The notes beneath the pieces were generated by a model. That model worked only from the letters and a program-made list of their open reading frames with translations, was not told the origin of the DNA and did no database searches. A DNA stretch of 64,000 nucleotides from Methylopila sp. 73B (GTDB lineage Bacteria; Pseudomonadota; Alphaproteobacteria; Rhizobiales; Methylopilaceae), in contig NZ_JAFV01000001.1 of the NCBI RefSeq assembly GCF_000526315.1, positions 3,474,501-3,538,500 on the forward strand, in the 5' to 3' direction. Position 1 is the first letter of the stretch. Every line of letters begins with the position of its first letter. Positions 37,730 through 52,428 of this stretch are shown here, one piece after another. The translations under genes and the position numbers were made by a program.

Positions 37730-37763
37730 GCGCCCGCTCCGGAAGCGCGGCGGCCGCCGTCCC

Positions 37764-37891
37764 GTCTCCCCTTGCGGGAGAAGGTGGCGTGGAGCGCCGG
37801 ATGAGGGGTCGTTCGGGACATTCTGGCCATCGAAGAGGGCGTCCCGGACGACCCCTCACCCCTACCCTCTCCCGCAAGGGGAGAGGGGGAC
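37764..37891. repeat. Inverted repeat pair, family B, without a gene
   Basis: The left arm (37764-37820) begins with a TCTCCCCTTGCGGGAGA hairpin and goes on to a GATGAGGGG block and CGGGAC. The right arm (37838-37891) is its inverted counterpart, ending with CTCTCCCGCAAGGGGAGAG. TGAGGGGTCGTTCGGGAC (37803-37820) pairs with GTCCCGGACGACCCCTCA with one mismatch. The arms resemble those around the DUF559 gene at 39391-39839. The pair lies in the 317-bp gap between comF and cfa, and no gene is seen there. Confidence 0.8.
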
Positions 37892-38046
37892 GACAACGGC
37901 GCGTTTCGGCATCCGAGGGCTGAGCCTCGCACGACTGTCGCGCAGGCGCGCCGGTTCGAAGCGCGGCTTGCGCATGCACAAAGACGGTGCGGGATCGCGC
38001 TCCCTGTTCTAATCAAGCGCCCAGCCCTTCACGTCCGGAGCCGCCG

Positions 38047-39276
38047 ATGGATCTGTTCCAAGCCATGCTACGCCGTTTCGTCGGCCGCGGCTCGCTCACG
38101 ATCATCGACCATAAGGGCGTCCGCCACAGCCATTCGGGCGAACCCGGCCCCGCGGTCACGCTCAAGTTCCACGACGCCAAGGTCGCGCGCGACCTGCTGC
38201 TCAATCCGGAGCTGAAGGCGGGCGAGGCTTACATGGACGGCCGGCTCACCATCGAGCAGGGGACGCTGCGCGACTTCCTGACGATCTATGCGCTGAACCG
38301 CACGAACCTGCGCGCCCAGCCGATCCAGAAGGCGTTGCGCCGCGGCCTGAAGACGCTGAAGCGCTGGGCGCGCTCGAACACGACGGCGCTGTCGAAGAAG
38401 AACGTCGAGGCGCACTACGACCTCTCGAACGAGATGTACCGGCTCTTCCTCGACGAGGGGCTGAACTACTCCTGCGGCTATTTCCGGTCGCCCGACGACA
38501 CGCTGGAGGAGGCGCAGGTCGCCAAGCTCCGCCACATCGCGGCGAAGCTCGACCTCAAGCCCGGCCAGCGCGTGCTCGACATCGGCTCCGGCTGGGGCTC
38601 GATGGCGATCTATCTCGCCGAGAACTGCGGGGTCGAGGTGGTCGGCGTCACGCTGTCGAAGGAGCAGCGGGCGCTCGCGATCGAACGCGCCGCGGCGCGC
38701 GGCCTCTCCGACCGGGTGCGGTTCGAGCTGATGGACTACCGCGACGTGGAGGGCCCGTTCGACCGCATCGTCTCCGTCGGCATGTTCGAGCACGTGGGCG
38801 TCAAGAACTTCCCGGCGTTCTTCGCCAAGGTCTCGAAGCTGCTGAAGCCGGACGGCGTGGCGCTGCTGCATTCGATCGGGCGCAAGGGCGGCCCGGGGGT
38901 CACCGGGGCTTGGGTGAAGAAGTACATCTTCCCCGGCGGCTACTCGCCCGCGCTCTCGGAGACCCTGACCGCGATCGAGGGCGCGAAGCTCTGGGCGACC
39001 GACATCGAGATCTGGCGGATGCACTACGCCGAGACCCTCGTGCATTGGGAGCGCCGGTTCCAGGAGAACCGCGCCCAGGCCGCGGCGCTGCTCGGCGAGC
39101 GGTTCTGCCGGATGTGGGAGTTCTACCTCATCACCGCGGAGTTCTCGTTCCGCCACGGCAAGCACATGGTCTTCCAGATCCAGCTCACCAAGGACGTCGC
39201 CGCCACGCCGATGACGCGCGACTACATGGCCGAGGCCGAGGCGCGGCTGCAGGCGGGGGAACGGCGGCCGGATTGA
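38047..39276 (+). CDS. cfa: Cyclopropane-fatty-acyl-phospholipid synthase
   Basis: This SAM-dependent enzyme of 409 residues methylenates unsaturated acyl chains in membrane lipids. The SAM motif VLDIGSGWGSMAIYLAE, the NVEAHYDLSNEMYRLFLDE block, LNYSCGYF, GMFEHVGVKNF, and YIFPGGYSPALSE are all characteristic. A GGAG motif is 7 bp before the ATG. It separates comF from the methyltransferase gene that normally stands beside it, together with the DUF559 unit. Confidence 0.94.
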   Translation: MDLFQAMLRRFVGRGSLTIIDHKGVRHSHSGEPGPAVTLKFHDAKVARDLLLNPELKAGEAYMDGRLTIEQGTLRDFLTIYALNRTNLRAQPIQKALRRGLKTLKRWARSNTTALSKKNVEAHYDLSNEMYRLFLDEGLNYSCGYFRSPDDTLEEAQVAKLRHIAAKLDLKPGQRVLDIGSGWGSMAIYLAENCGVEVVGVTLSKEQRALAIERAAARGLSDRVRFELMDYRDVEGPFDRIVSVGMFEHVGVKNFPAFFAKVSKLLKPDGVALLHSIGRKGGPGVTGAWVKKYIFPGGYSPALSETLTAIEGAKLWATDIEIWRMHYAETLVHWERRFQENRAQAAALLGERFCRMWEFYLITAEFSFRHGKHMVFQIQLTKDVAATPMTRDYMAEAEARLQAGERRPD

Positions 39277-39390
39277 GGGGGCGTAAGACTCATCCGCTAC
39301 CTCGCCGCGACTGAGCGTGCGAGGAGATTGGGTGACGGAACGACGACTTCGCGCCAAAATGATCCCCCGTTGAATAGAAGCGCGGGTCTG

Positions 39391-39443
39391 GACCTCTCCC
39401 CGGTGGGGAGAGGTCGGATGACGCAGTCATCCGGGTGAGGGGG
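39391..39443 (+). repeat. Left arm of the inverted repeat enclosing the DUF559 gene (family B)
   Basis: The arm holds two hairpins: CTCTCCCCGGTGGGGAGAG and GATGACGCAGTCATC, then CGGGTGAGGGGG directly against the ATG at 39444. The last block is an excellent ribosome-binding site. The right arm at 39791-39839 is the inverted match. Confidence 0.88.
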
Positions 39444-39788
39444 ATGAACCGCTTCGGGACGCGTGCAAAAGCCCTGCGCGAAAACGAGACGAGGGCAGAG
39501 GCCCGCCTGTGGCAGGCGCTGCGCGGCCGCCGCCTCGCGGCTTGGAAGTTCCGTCGGCAGCATCCGATCGACCGTTACGTCGTCGACTTCGTCACCCTTG
39601 CGGGACAGCTCGTGGTCGAGGTCGACGGCGCGACCCATGGGACCTTGGACGAGATCGCGCGCGACGAGCGGCGGACCGCTCACCTTGAGCGCCTGGGCTT
39701 CCTTGTCATGCGGGTTGGGAACGTCGACGTGTTTGAAAACCTCGACGGCGTGTGCGAGGCGATCCATGCGCAGTTGACAGGCCGTTAG
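39444..39788 (+). CDS. DUF559-domain endonuclease-like protein inside an inverted repeat
   Basis: This 114-residue protein has the DUF559 pattern: RAKALRENETRAEARLWQAL, KFRRQHPIDRYVVDFV, LVVEVDGATH and HLERLGFLVMRVGNVDVF. Asp48 in VVDF, Glu59 and Asp61 in VEVDG fit a Vsr-like PD-(D/E)XK nuclease centre, so DNA cleavage is plausible but not shown. Its start and stop abut the two arms of a 50-bp inverted repeat. A GTG at 39435 lies inside the left arm and is a less likely start. It interrupts the comF-methyltransferase neighbourhood. Confidence 0.9.
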   Translation: MNRFGTRAKALRENETRAEARLWQALRGRRLAAWKFRRQHPIDRYVVDFVTLAGQLVVEVDGATHGTLDEIARDERRTAHLERLGFLVMRVGNVDVFENLDGVCEAIHAQLTGR

Positions 39789-39790
39789 AG

Positions 39791-39839
39791 CCCCCTCACC
39801 CGCCGCTGCGCGGCGACCTCTCCCCGCCGGGGAGAGGTG
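39791..39839 (-). repeat. Right arm of the inverted repeat enclosing the DUF559 gene (family B)
   Basis: On the minus strand this reads CCTCTCCCCGGCGGGGAGAGG, a second hairpin CGCCGCGCAGCGGCG, then GGGTGAGGGGG. It starts two bases after the DUF559 stop. The outer hairpin and the final block match the left arm, while the inner hairpin differs in sequence but keeps its pairing. Confidence 0.88.
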
Positions 39840-39991: not shown

Positions 39992-40876
39992 ATGACCGCC
40001 GTTCCCCTCCTCATCGACCGCCGGGCGCTCGGGCTGCGGCTTGCGCGCGCGGCGACAGCGGGCGGCGGGCCCAACTTCCTGCGGCGGCGCGTGGCCGAGG
40101 ATCTCGCGGACCGGCTGGCCGCGACGCTCCGGCCGTTCGCCCACGCGCTCGACCTCGTCTCGGCCGGCGCGGAGGCCGCCGCCGTGCTGCGCGCGCGGCC
40201 GGGCGCCGGGCGCGTCGTCCGGGCGGCGGCGCGGGCCGATGCCGGGGCGGACCTTGTCTGCGATCCGGCGGCCTCGCCGTTCGCGCCCGAGAGCTTCGAT
40301 CTCGTGGTCTCGTCGCTGGCGCTGCAGTTGGTCGACGACCTTCCGGGGGCGCTGGCCCAAGTGCGGCGCATGCTGCGGCCGGATGGGCTGTTCCTCGCGG
40401 CCCTGTTCGGCGGCGAGACGCTGACGGAGCTGCGGCAGGCCTTCGCGGCGGCCGAGGGCGAGGTCGAGGGCGGGCTCAGTCCGCGGGTGCTGCCCTTCGC
40501 CGACGTGAGGGCGCTGGGCGCGCTGCTGCAGCGGGCGGGTTTCGCGCTGCCGGTCGCGGACGTCGACCGCGTGACGGTGCGCTACCCGCATGCGCTTGCG
40601 CTGATGGCGGACCTGCGCGCCTGGGGCGCGACCAACGTGCTGCTGGAGCGGCGGCGCGGGCCGCTGCGGCGGGCGACGCTCGCCCGCGCGCTCACGATCT
40701 ACGCCGAACGCTTCGCCGACGCCGACGGCCGGGTGCGCGCGACGTTCGACATCGCCTGGCTGTCCGGCTGGGCGCCGCATCCGGAGCAGCAGAAGCCGCT
40801 CAAGCCCGGCTCCGCCCGCGCGCGCCTTGCCGACGCGCTCGGCGTGCCCGAGGGGGAATTTCCGGGGAAGGGGTGA
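39992..40876 (+). CDS. SAM-dependent methyltransferase (NDUFAF5/BioC-like)
   Basis: This 294-residue protein starts MTAVPLLIDRRALGLRLARA and has a degenerate class I SAM fold: ASPFAPESFDLVVSSLALQ, VDDLPGALAQVRRMLRPDG and LFLAALFGGETLTELRQAF. The alphaproteobacterial relatives of NDUFAF5 and BioC look like this and often stand divergent from comF. The classic GxGxG motif I is not obvious, so activity is uncertain. The repeat arm ends about 150 bp upstream. Confidence 0.83.
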   Translation: MTAVPLLIDRRALGLRLARAATAGGGPNFLRRRVAEDLADRLAATLRPFAHALDLVSAGAEAAAVLRARPGAGRVVRAAARADAGADLVCDPAASPFAPESFDLVVSSLALQLVDDLPGALAQVRRMLRPDGLFLAALFGGETLTELRQAFAAAEGEVEGGLSPRVLPFADVRALGALLQRAGFALPVADVDRVTVRYPHALALMADLRAWGATNVLLERRRGPLRRATLARALTIYAERFADADGRVRATFDIAWLSGWAPHPEQQKPLKPGSARARLADALGVPEGEFPGKG

Positions 40877-52281: not shown

Positions 52282-52428
52282 TCCCCCTCCCCTTGCGGGG
52301 AGGGGTCAGGGGTGGGGGTGGCGCAGAATCAACCTCGCGGGTCGAGGCGGGCTCGGGCGCGGTTTCGCGGGCGGAGGCTCGTCCGGAACCACCCCCACCC
52401 CCGACCCCTCCCCACAGGGGGGAGGGGA
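52282..52428. repeat. Inverted repeat pair, family B-like, without a gene
   Basis: The left arm CCCCTCCCCTTGCGGGGAGG with GGTGGGGGTGG (52282-52321) is inverted in the right arm CCACCCCCACCCCCGACC with CTCCCC (52389-52428). About 67 bp of unremarkable GC-rich sequence lie between. The hairpin resembles the outer hairpin of the arms at 37764 and 39391, but the inner hairpin is missing. Confidence 0.75.

Follow-up and report, generated by a model that had tools for sequence, protein, structure and literature searches.

The DUF559 nuclease gene of this locus stands between two stretches of inverted sequence, one reaching its start codon and the other beginning just past its stop codon, which raises the question of what these arms are and whether the nuclease has anything to do with them. 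Read from the sequence alone, gene and arms looked like a minimal mobile element, i.e., a nuclease between terminal inverted repeats. The comparisons described below point to a different relationship, in which the arms are members of a dispersed repeat family and the DUF559 protein is probably the nuclease that goes with it.

The gene and the two modules that enclose it

Within the window, by which we mean the whole 64-kb stretch of DNA analysed, the gene (39444..39788, plus strand) is an intact DUF559 (PF04480) open reading frame that runs from an ATG at 39444 to a stop codon at 39786-39788 and encodes 114 amino acids; an alternative GTG start at 39435, present in the list of open reading frames of the window, would give a DUF559 product of 117 amino acids. 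The sequence-only reading was right to call it a Vsr/DUF559-type gene of 114 codons, as the protein matches PF04480 with an E-value of 8e-33 and 113 bits (cut-off 20.6) over positions 5-108 of the 109 in the profile. PF04480 and PF18741 were its only Pfam matches at E <= 0.001, and PADLOC assigned it to no family. Profile comparison identified 3HRL as a solved relative of DUF559 (E 9e-34), while a mobile intron protein, 3R3P, matched the DUF559 profile weakly over the catalytic region (E 7e-5) and 1CW0 reached an E-value of only 0.62. 3R3P is an I-Bth0305I-like homing endonuclease. Compared with a paralogue in its own genome, the window gene shows a dS of 1.47 and a dN/dS of 0.12, and it is therefore an old copy under purifying selection. 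It lies between a cyclopropane-synthase-like gene on the left (PF02353 by profile match; 37987..39276, plus strand), whose relatives mark the site in the genus, and a methyltransferase-like gene on the right (PF08241 by profile match; 39992..40876, plus strand).

The arms themselves are composite. The left module (minus strand) consists of an outer palindrome, ACCTCTCCCC-GGT-GGGGAGAGGT (39392..39414; pattern search and fold), whose core occurs 70 times in the genome; a second hairpin recognised from the fold, which is the variable part of the module (39415..39433); and a purine block, GGTGAGGGGG (39434..39443), which is apparent in the sequence through a perfect inverted arm of 12 nt and lies directly 5' of the ATG. 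The right module (plus strand) is made up of a pyrimidine block, CCCCCTCACCC (39791..39801; sequence and inverted-arm search), a second hairpin (39801..39815; fold) and an outer palindrome, ACCTCTCCCC-GCC-GGGGAGAGGT (39816..39838; pattern search and fold). On both sides the palindrome halves are CCTCTCCCC-n3-GGGGAGAGG, and a pattern search found CCTCTCCCCn3GGGGAGAGG without mismatch at 39393-39413 and 39817-39837. The left arm does reach the ATG and the right arm does begin two bases past the stop codon, as had been noticed at first sight. The matching inverted arms of about 50 bp described at the same time are real as inverted arms, but they are not one continuous 50-bp repeat: what they share is the palindrome and the purine block, the latter within the perfect 12-nt arms CGGGTGAGGGGG and CCCCCTCACCCG, whereas the hairpin in between is GGATGACGCAGTCATCC on the left and CCGCTGCGCGG on the right.

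This arrangement exceeds what shuffled sequence produces. With up to 3 mismatches, the palindrome pattern has 6 matches in the 64-kb window, compared with a mean of 0.14 and a maximum of 2 in 100 shuffles; aligned in inverted orientation, the two 300-nt flanks score 51, compared with a maximum of 34 in 100 shuffles; and each arm folds into two adjacent hairpins (z -4.9 and -4.5), a stability equalled by 0/200 shuffles. The module is a REP-like unit in which a palindrome is followed by another hairpin and then by a purine block. The GGTGAGGGGG block sits where a ribosome-binding site belongs and, to judge from that position, may function as one. The window contains further repeats of this kind, namely a palindrome pair of another type (37763-37886; spacing 103), which separates the left neighbour from the gene preceding it, in an interval that is shorter in one genome of the genus (G008), and more C-rich palindromes at 52284-52427.

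A dispersed repeat family and sites with and without the unit

The 4.38-Mb genome holds 70 exact palindromes, mostly without the gene, and 0 matches to the reversed pattern, so that the arms cannot be regarded as the private ends of one element, as the sequence-only reading had them. Gene-less inverted doublets are common: 26 were counted in 18 stretches of the genome that had been picked because they contained listed palindromes with at most 2 mismatches. Half of these doublets (13/26) are oriented as around the gene, with spacings of 103 (nine doublets), 104 (three) and 109 (one), and the other 13 have the opposite orientation and spacings of 43-80. In their middle part the doublets show no conservation. 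The inner loop is likewise diverse, with 41 different sequences among 75 modules from stretches of this genome and of another in the genus (G007), and a stem of at least 5 pairs is kept in 56 of the 75 (mean 5.0, compared with 3.9 after shuffling); a stem that is kept despite varied loops points to selection on the folded strand. By eye, no 5' GTAG-type tetranucleotide was seen in the modules of the 18 stretches.

The sites that such repeats occupy differ between relatives. At the window site, DUF559 was found in 0/12 genus relatives, and in 8/12 the two neighbouring genes lie close together, which agrees with the expectation of the sequence-only reading that the flanking genes would be joined where the gene is missing; in one of the genus genomes (G011) the TGA of the left gene even overlaps the GTG of the right gene. 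Two further relatives (G008 and G002) have about 0.9-1.0 kb of other sequence between the neighbours, one (G004) has an unrelated repeat, and in one (G010) the right neighbour was not seen. A second DUF559 unit of the genome lies between rbfA and truB, a site that we named by PF02033 and PF01509. It is common to this genome and two other species (G003 and G005), and this sharing of one copy by three species indicates that the gene is largely inherited. In seven relatives the rbfA-truB junction is plain, without the gene and without modules, and in the two cases checked it is a stop/start overlap. Two more (G007, L162; G004, L163) carry a gene-less doublet of another repeat type there, which makes this a shared insertion point, and in G009 the site is interrupted by contig ends. 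Doublets without the gene are polymorphic as well, since 4/4 of those in a 16.5-kb stretch of this genome are absent from the matching stretch of G002. Outside the genus, a Sinorhizobium DUF559 gene is enclosed by two complete doublets, in a unit of about 770 bp, and in Shinella, which lacks the unit, the flanking matches are 9 nt apart.

Other candidate sites were less clear. The one site tried for a recent empty counterpart in Sinorhizobium meliloti pSymB held an insertion sequence and other repeats, with no clean boundary. A simple empty site for E. coli ycjD had to be rejected, as sapF is followed by an efflux operon in two strains without ycjD, an arrangement also described in the literature (PMC12817139). 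In Azospirillum no empty site was found, at least 80% of the query with the gene being covered in 7/7 Azospirillum records matched.

The absence of the whole unit from matching sites in relatives is what one would expect of a simple autonomous transposon, in which the nuclease and its terminal inverted repeats move together. Of this view, which is that of the sequence-only reading, a part is supported, namely that the arms recur with the gene and that relatives lack the unit; the dispersal of the repeats, the shared rbfA-truB copy and the failure to find a regular target duplication speak against the remainder. There are only two type-A gene copies (see below) against the 70 palindromes of the genome, and the window copy is old relative to its paralogue. 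Among 32 doublets and 30 units, no excess of a regular target duplication was found over mismatched pairs, the exact ends being undefined: direct matches beside the units measured 6.2 nt vs. 5.5 nt for mismatched pairs in this genome, 5.6 vs. 5.4 nt in G007, and 7.7 vs. 7.4 nt in a second test. We therefore consider a simple transposon very improbable, and we reject a private transposon as the sole explanation, given the gene-less dispersed repeats and the age of the copy, no regular target duplication having been found.

Three individual cases in these stretches deserve mention. A single doublet (L110, 960-1230) is bordered on each side by the same 17-nt direct repeat, which may be a target duplication but is not seen at the other units. 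Another doublet lies inside an open reading frame (L099, 6640-6980, compared with L129, 6534-6682). In this genome the frame continues through the repeat without a stop and exceeds that of G002 by 64 codons, as would be the case for a protein-coding palindromic element. A dispersed repeat of another kind, about 110-120 bp long (L099, 9795-9916), is present in this genome and missing at the same point in G002.

The doublets also bear on the possibility that the gene is a passenger, similar to a homing endonuclease, that invades doublets of modules, in which case a gene-less doublet would be the empty site. The framed gene does have the orientation of the doublets with a spacing of 103-109 nt, with the gene in the middle, and the weak sequence relation to the mobile intron protein 3R3P would fit. 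However, the gene-less rbfA-truB sites of seven relatives are also without modules, and the same holds for Shinella; because the doublets vary in their middle part, insertion there would presumably leave the recognition site intact; and the spread of the repeats would go unexplained. We regard such a passenger as improbable.

Coupling of DUF559 genes and repeats across genomes

The DUF559 gene and the repeats that frame it are coupled, and this coupling is seen at several levels. Within the genome, four DUF559 genes were found, and 4/4 stand between modules, of three types. Type A modules flank the window copy and the rbfA-truB copy, and the other two genes, one of which has an in-frame stop (L004), have two further types. 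Of the 13 genomes of the genus, 10 carry DUF559, and at 17 of 23 places the inverted flanks exceed all 100 shuffles. The six places that do not exceed their shuffles are L027, a copy that has a stop and lies next to a contig end; L028 and L032, which are pieces of one gene; L035, a fragment at a contig end; L037, a match within a frame of 963 amino acids; and L031. One genome also has two tandem DUF559 genes (L036 and L038, G007:C1:199915-200722), which are 490 bp apart, share flanks and apparently arose by duplication.

Across the Pseudomonadota, DUF559 matches were found in 108 of 299 genomes. In an earlier batch of 30 loci, 18 had inverted flanks above all 50 shuffles. Thirty-three further loci, one per genus, were then evaluated; they had been taken, before their flanks were seen, from the matches listed (best first) of the 299-genome search and had not been used earlier. 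As controls, we used mechanical open reading frames no shorter than 240 nt, taken in order of decreasing length and located more than 900 nt from the gene in the same stretches. An inverted-flank score of at least 35 was reached by 22/33 loci and by 0/94 controls, and 25/33 loci exceeded their own shuffles. A polypyrimidine hairpin was present in at least one flank of 29/33 loci (8/94 controls) and in both flanks of 17/33 (1/94 controls). The window protein also retrieved 80 named loci. All but one, whose flank was too short, were scored, and 55/79 had inverted flanks, compared with 1/127 controls; these 80 loci represent 53 gene contexts, with 14 and 6 of the closest loci sharing one, and are therefore not independent, many of them being Bradyrhizobium copies in shared places. 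The recurrence of arms with the gene, proposed as a check in the sequence-only reading, is thus seen in 4/4 cases in the genome, at 22/33 loci across genera and at 55/79 scored named loci. The same reading had named armless homologues as evidence against a mobile unit, and these exist too: 11/33 loci score below 35, and two E. coli ycjD copies, together with two Azospirillum copies, do not rise above their shuffles.

These counts also bear on the reading that there is no functional link at all, and that C-rich palindromes gather between genes and flank this one by chance. It is true that, in these genomes, the majority of palindromes have no DUF559 gene anywhere near them. However, the control frames (0/94 and 1/127) strongly disfavour chance, as does the clade-specific pairing described next, and we give this reading almost no credence.

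Plasmids and phages were covered as well. Eight plasmid copies from outside the Pseudomonadota were read, corresponding to 3/4 Deinococcus and 5/6 cyanobacterial records listed. Strong inverted flanks were found in 3/3 Deinococcus and 2/2 Pseudanabaena copies, although in one of the latter (L301) the flanks fall within a long stretch annotated as coding; two Synechocystis copies had no inverted flanks, and one Picosynechococcus copy fell just under its own shuffles. Cyanobacterial plasmid DUF559 genes at three places (L295, L296 and L297) adjoin DUF1156 or BREX PglX genes, and a separate use of these genes in defence is possible. Two PLSDB records of 4.8-4.9 Mb (NZ_OL790696.1 and NZ_CP141089.1) carry the E. 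coli sapF-ycjD region and are probably chromosomes. Of 50,697 phage records, 3 had a DUF559 relative.

The type of flank follows the clade of the DUF559 protein. For 14/14 non-orthologous loci of the genus, the best flank match was to a locus of the same clade, and the Mantel rho of 0.61 was equalled by 0/5000 permutations; for this test we dropped three loci in the same place as others (L025, L026 and L033), the tandem twin L038 of L036, and the partial or contig-end places L027, L028, L032, L035 and L037. Genes of different clades in the same genome have unrelated flanks, which are 42-54 percent identical and score 24-33, compared with 72 and 103 for same-clade pairs.

Genes and repeats also occur together at the level of whole genomes. 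Using the pattern CCTCTCCCn3-8GGGAGAGG, and counting as a strong DUF559 hit any match with E<1e-10 (a cut-off chosen here), at least 10 palindromes were found in 44/80 genomes with a strong hit and in 7/219 others. Within-family permutation of the 299 Pseudomonadota genomes, which corrects at the level of families, reached 44 in 0/5000 trials. The seven genomes with repeats and without a strong hit are G291 (34 palindromes), G084 (57), G169 (110), G190 (111), G228 (28), G079 (19) and G048 (13); six have no DUF559 hit and one (G190) has a weak one. Eleven of the 80 strong-hit genomes were without this pattern, which other repeat types would escape. Within the genus, exact type-A palindromes number 70 in this genome and 26 in each of two other species with a type-A gene. 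The two relatives that are closest by their left neighbour (99 and 96 percent) have no DUF559, and their palindromes number 2 and 11. A further three genomes (G011, G012 and G009) have 18, 15 and 12, and four have 0. G007 has 121 exact type-A palindromes and five DUF559 places, none of them in the type-A protein clade. REPs linked to RAYTs likewise outlast their RAYT (PMC3686654).

Known repeat systems and a probable role for DUF559

The nearest analogue is the RAYT-REPIN system. As far as the cited portions of the literature describe it, the nuclease gene is framed by inverted REP copies, gene-less REP doublets are dispersed, the repeat class follows the nuclease, the repeats may outlast the gene and the gene is mostly inherited (PMC3686654; PMC3116915), and the DUF559 system is like it in these respects. 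It differs in both partners: the nuclease is PF04480 (Vsr-like, PD-(D/E)XK) and not an HUH tyrosine transposase, and in place of a GTAG-tagged REP there is a polypyrimidine/polypurine module that includes a second hairpin. Neither this genome nor the 12 best-quality genomes of the genus yielded a Y1_Tnp (PF01797) or RAYT gene.

The repeats themselves are similar to BoxC, PIT and TMECO elements in their succession of pyrimidine, purine and purine blocks, CCTCTCCCC n3 GGGGAGAGG ... GGGTGAGGGG, and, going by the parts of the paper cited, also in being intergenic and in forming some inverted tandem pairs (PMC4666352). The window modules, compared by eye, nevertheless fail the consensus CCCTCNCCCN3-6GGGNGAGGGN3GGGNGAGGG, as a long hairpin loop replaces the second N3; with a type A hairpin of at least 15 nt where TMECO has 3 nt, the TMECO consensus does not apply to them. 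Folding covered duplexes, in which the window arms form hairpins, and the triplex likeness rests on the layout of the blocks. RIME elements of rhizobia are short palindromic intergenic mosaic elements and are like the modules in that respect. Holder et al. (2015) described 23 triplex motifs in E. coli MG1655, and in the portion of their text drawn on here they state that activities providing mobility were never found near motif sites, and name no associated enzyme (PMC4666352). The same source places TMECO number 9 of MG1655 at 1,351,239-1,351,204 (PMC4666352, in the part cited). We found the sequence of TMECO number 9 between ycjD, the E. coli DUF559 gene, and fabI in the K-12 derivative MC1061, and this BoxC copy beside ycjD fits the TMECO consensus. 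The MG1655 position is presumably the same ycjD-fabI place.

On the side of the protein, the main rival to a role in repeat spread is that DUF559 acts in repair or structure processing as a Vsr-like nuclease and restrains the repeats by cutting hairpins, triplexes or mismatches, with the repeats spreading by another route. A profile relation between YcjD and Vsr has been reported in the cited part of one study (PMC1189080), although 1CW0 matched the DUF559 profile only insignificantly here, as given above. Caulobacter VsrA, which belongs to the same nuclease superfamily and contains DUF559, causes DNA damage in the absence of a cytosine methyltransferase and was interpreted by its authors as a mismatch-repair enzyme (PMC12907096). 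Unlike Vsr, the constant partner found here is a repeat. A repair enzyme would leave unexplained why the gene is framed by inverted repeats, why the type of flank matches the clade, and why gene and arms are jointly present or absent at one site; the framing of the gene by its own repeats argues for a spreader rather than for a repair enzyme that restrains them, and we consider the repair reading unlikely. The other relative, the I-Bth0305I-like homing endonuclease 3R3P, shares a weak profile match, whereas the DUF559 gene stands free between hairpin modules.

Taken together, we hypothesize, with reasonable confidence and by analogy to RAYT-REPIN, that the DUF559 protein is the nuclease cognate to the hairpin repeats on either side of its gene, with an unrelated nuclease in place of the RAYT. 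We infer binding, cutting and movement by DUF559 from the arrangement and distribution of genes and repeats. The nuclease might recognize modules of its own type when these are folded as a single strand or triplex, and cut or nick them, through which inverted pairs would be copied or moved, and the copied pairs would survive mainly in intergenic DNA. Gene-less doublets with a spacing of 103-109 nt and the same orientation as the modules around the gene could be what travels, a non-autonomous form comparable to the REPINs of RAYTs, while the unit with the gene would be a donor that seldom moves and is kept by selection. As the left arm occupies the position of the ribosome-binding site, binding of the nuclease there could also limit its own expression.

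These observations suggest that the enzyme helps to spread or maintain widespread bacterial repeats for which there is no known spreader. Going further, we lean slightly towards the view that DUF559 proteins are the missing mobilisers of BoxC, PIT and intrastrand-triplex repeats. They would then amount to a second REP system of independent origin, observed here in three phyla. In it, a PD-(D/E)XK nuclease would take the place of the HUH transposase, and a folded, possibly triple-stranded repeat end would be recognized and spread among tightly packed genes, including overlapping stop-start junctions. The matching of nuclease clade and repeat type makes the origin of the repeats testable, with E. 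coli K-12, through ycjD, among the hosts. If correct, this would assign a function to a large nuclease family whose name is still that of a domain of unknown function, and would add a second, unrelated nuclease-repeat partnership beside RAYT-REPIN. We found no description of a coupling between DUF559 and repeats in the literature searched, a search whose scope did not extend to preprints and most subscription papers.

Finally, the modules gave only sub-threshold matches in Rfam. One of these, to whalefall-1 (RF01762), is full-length and scores 22 to 28 bits, compared with a gathering score of 37, at window 39390-39442 and at two further places of the genome (G000:C1:2871913-2871965 and 226003-226055); judging from this resemblance, these repeats and the whalefall-1 RNA motif may be related.
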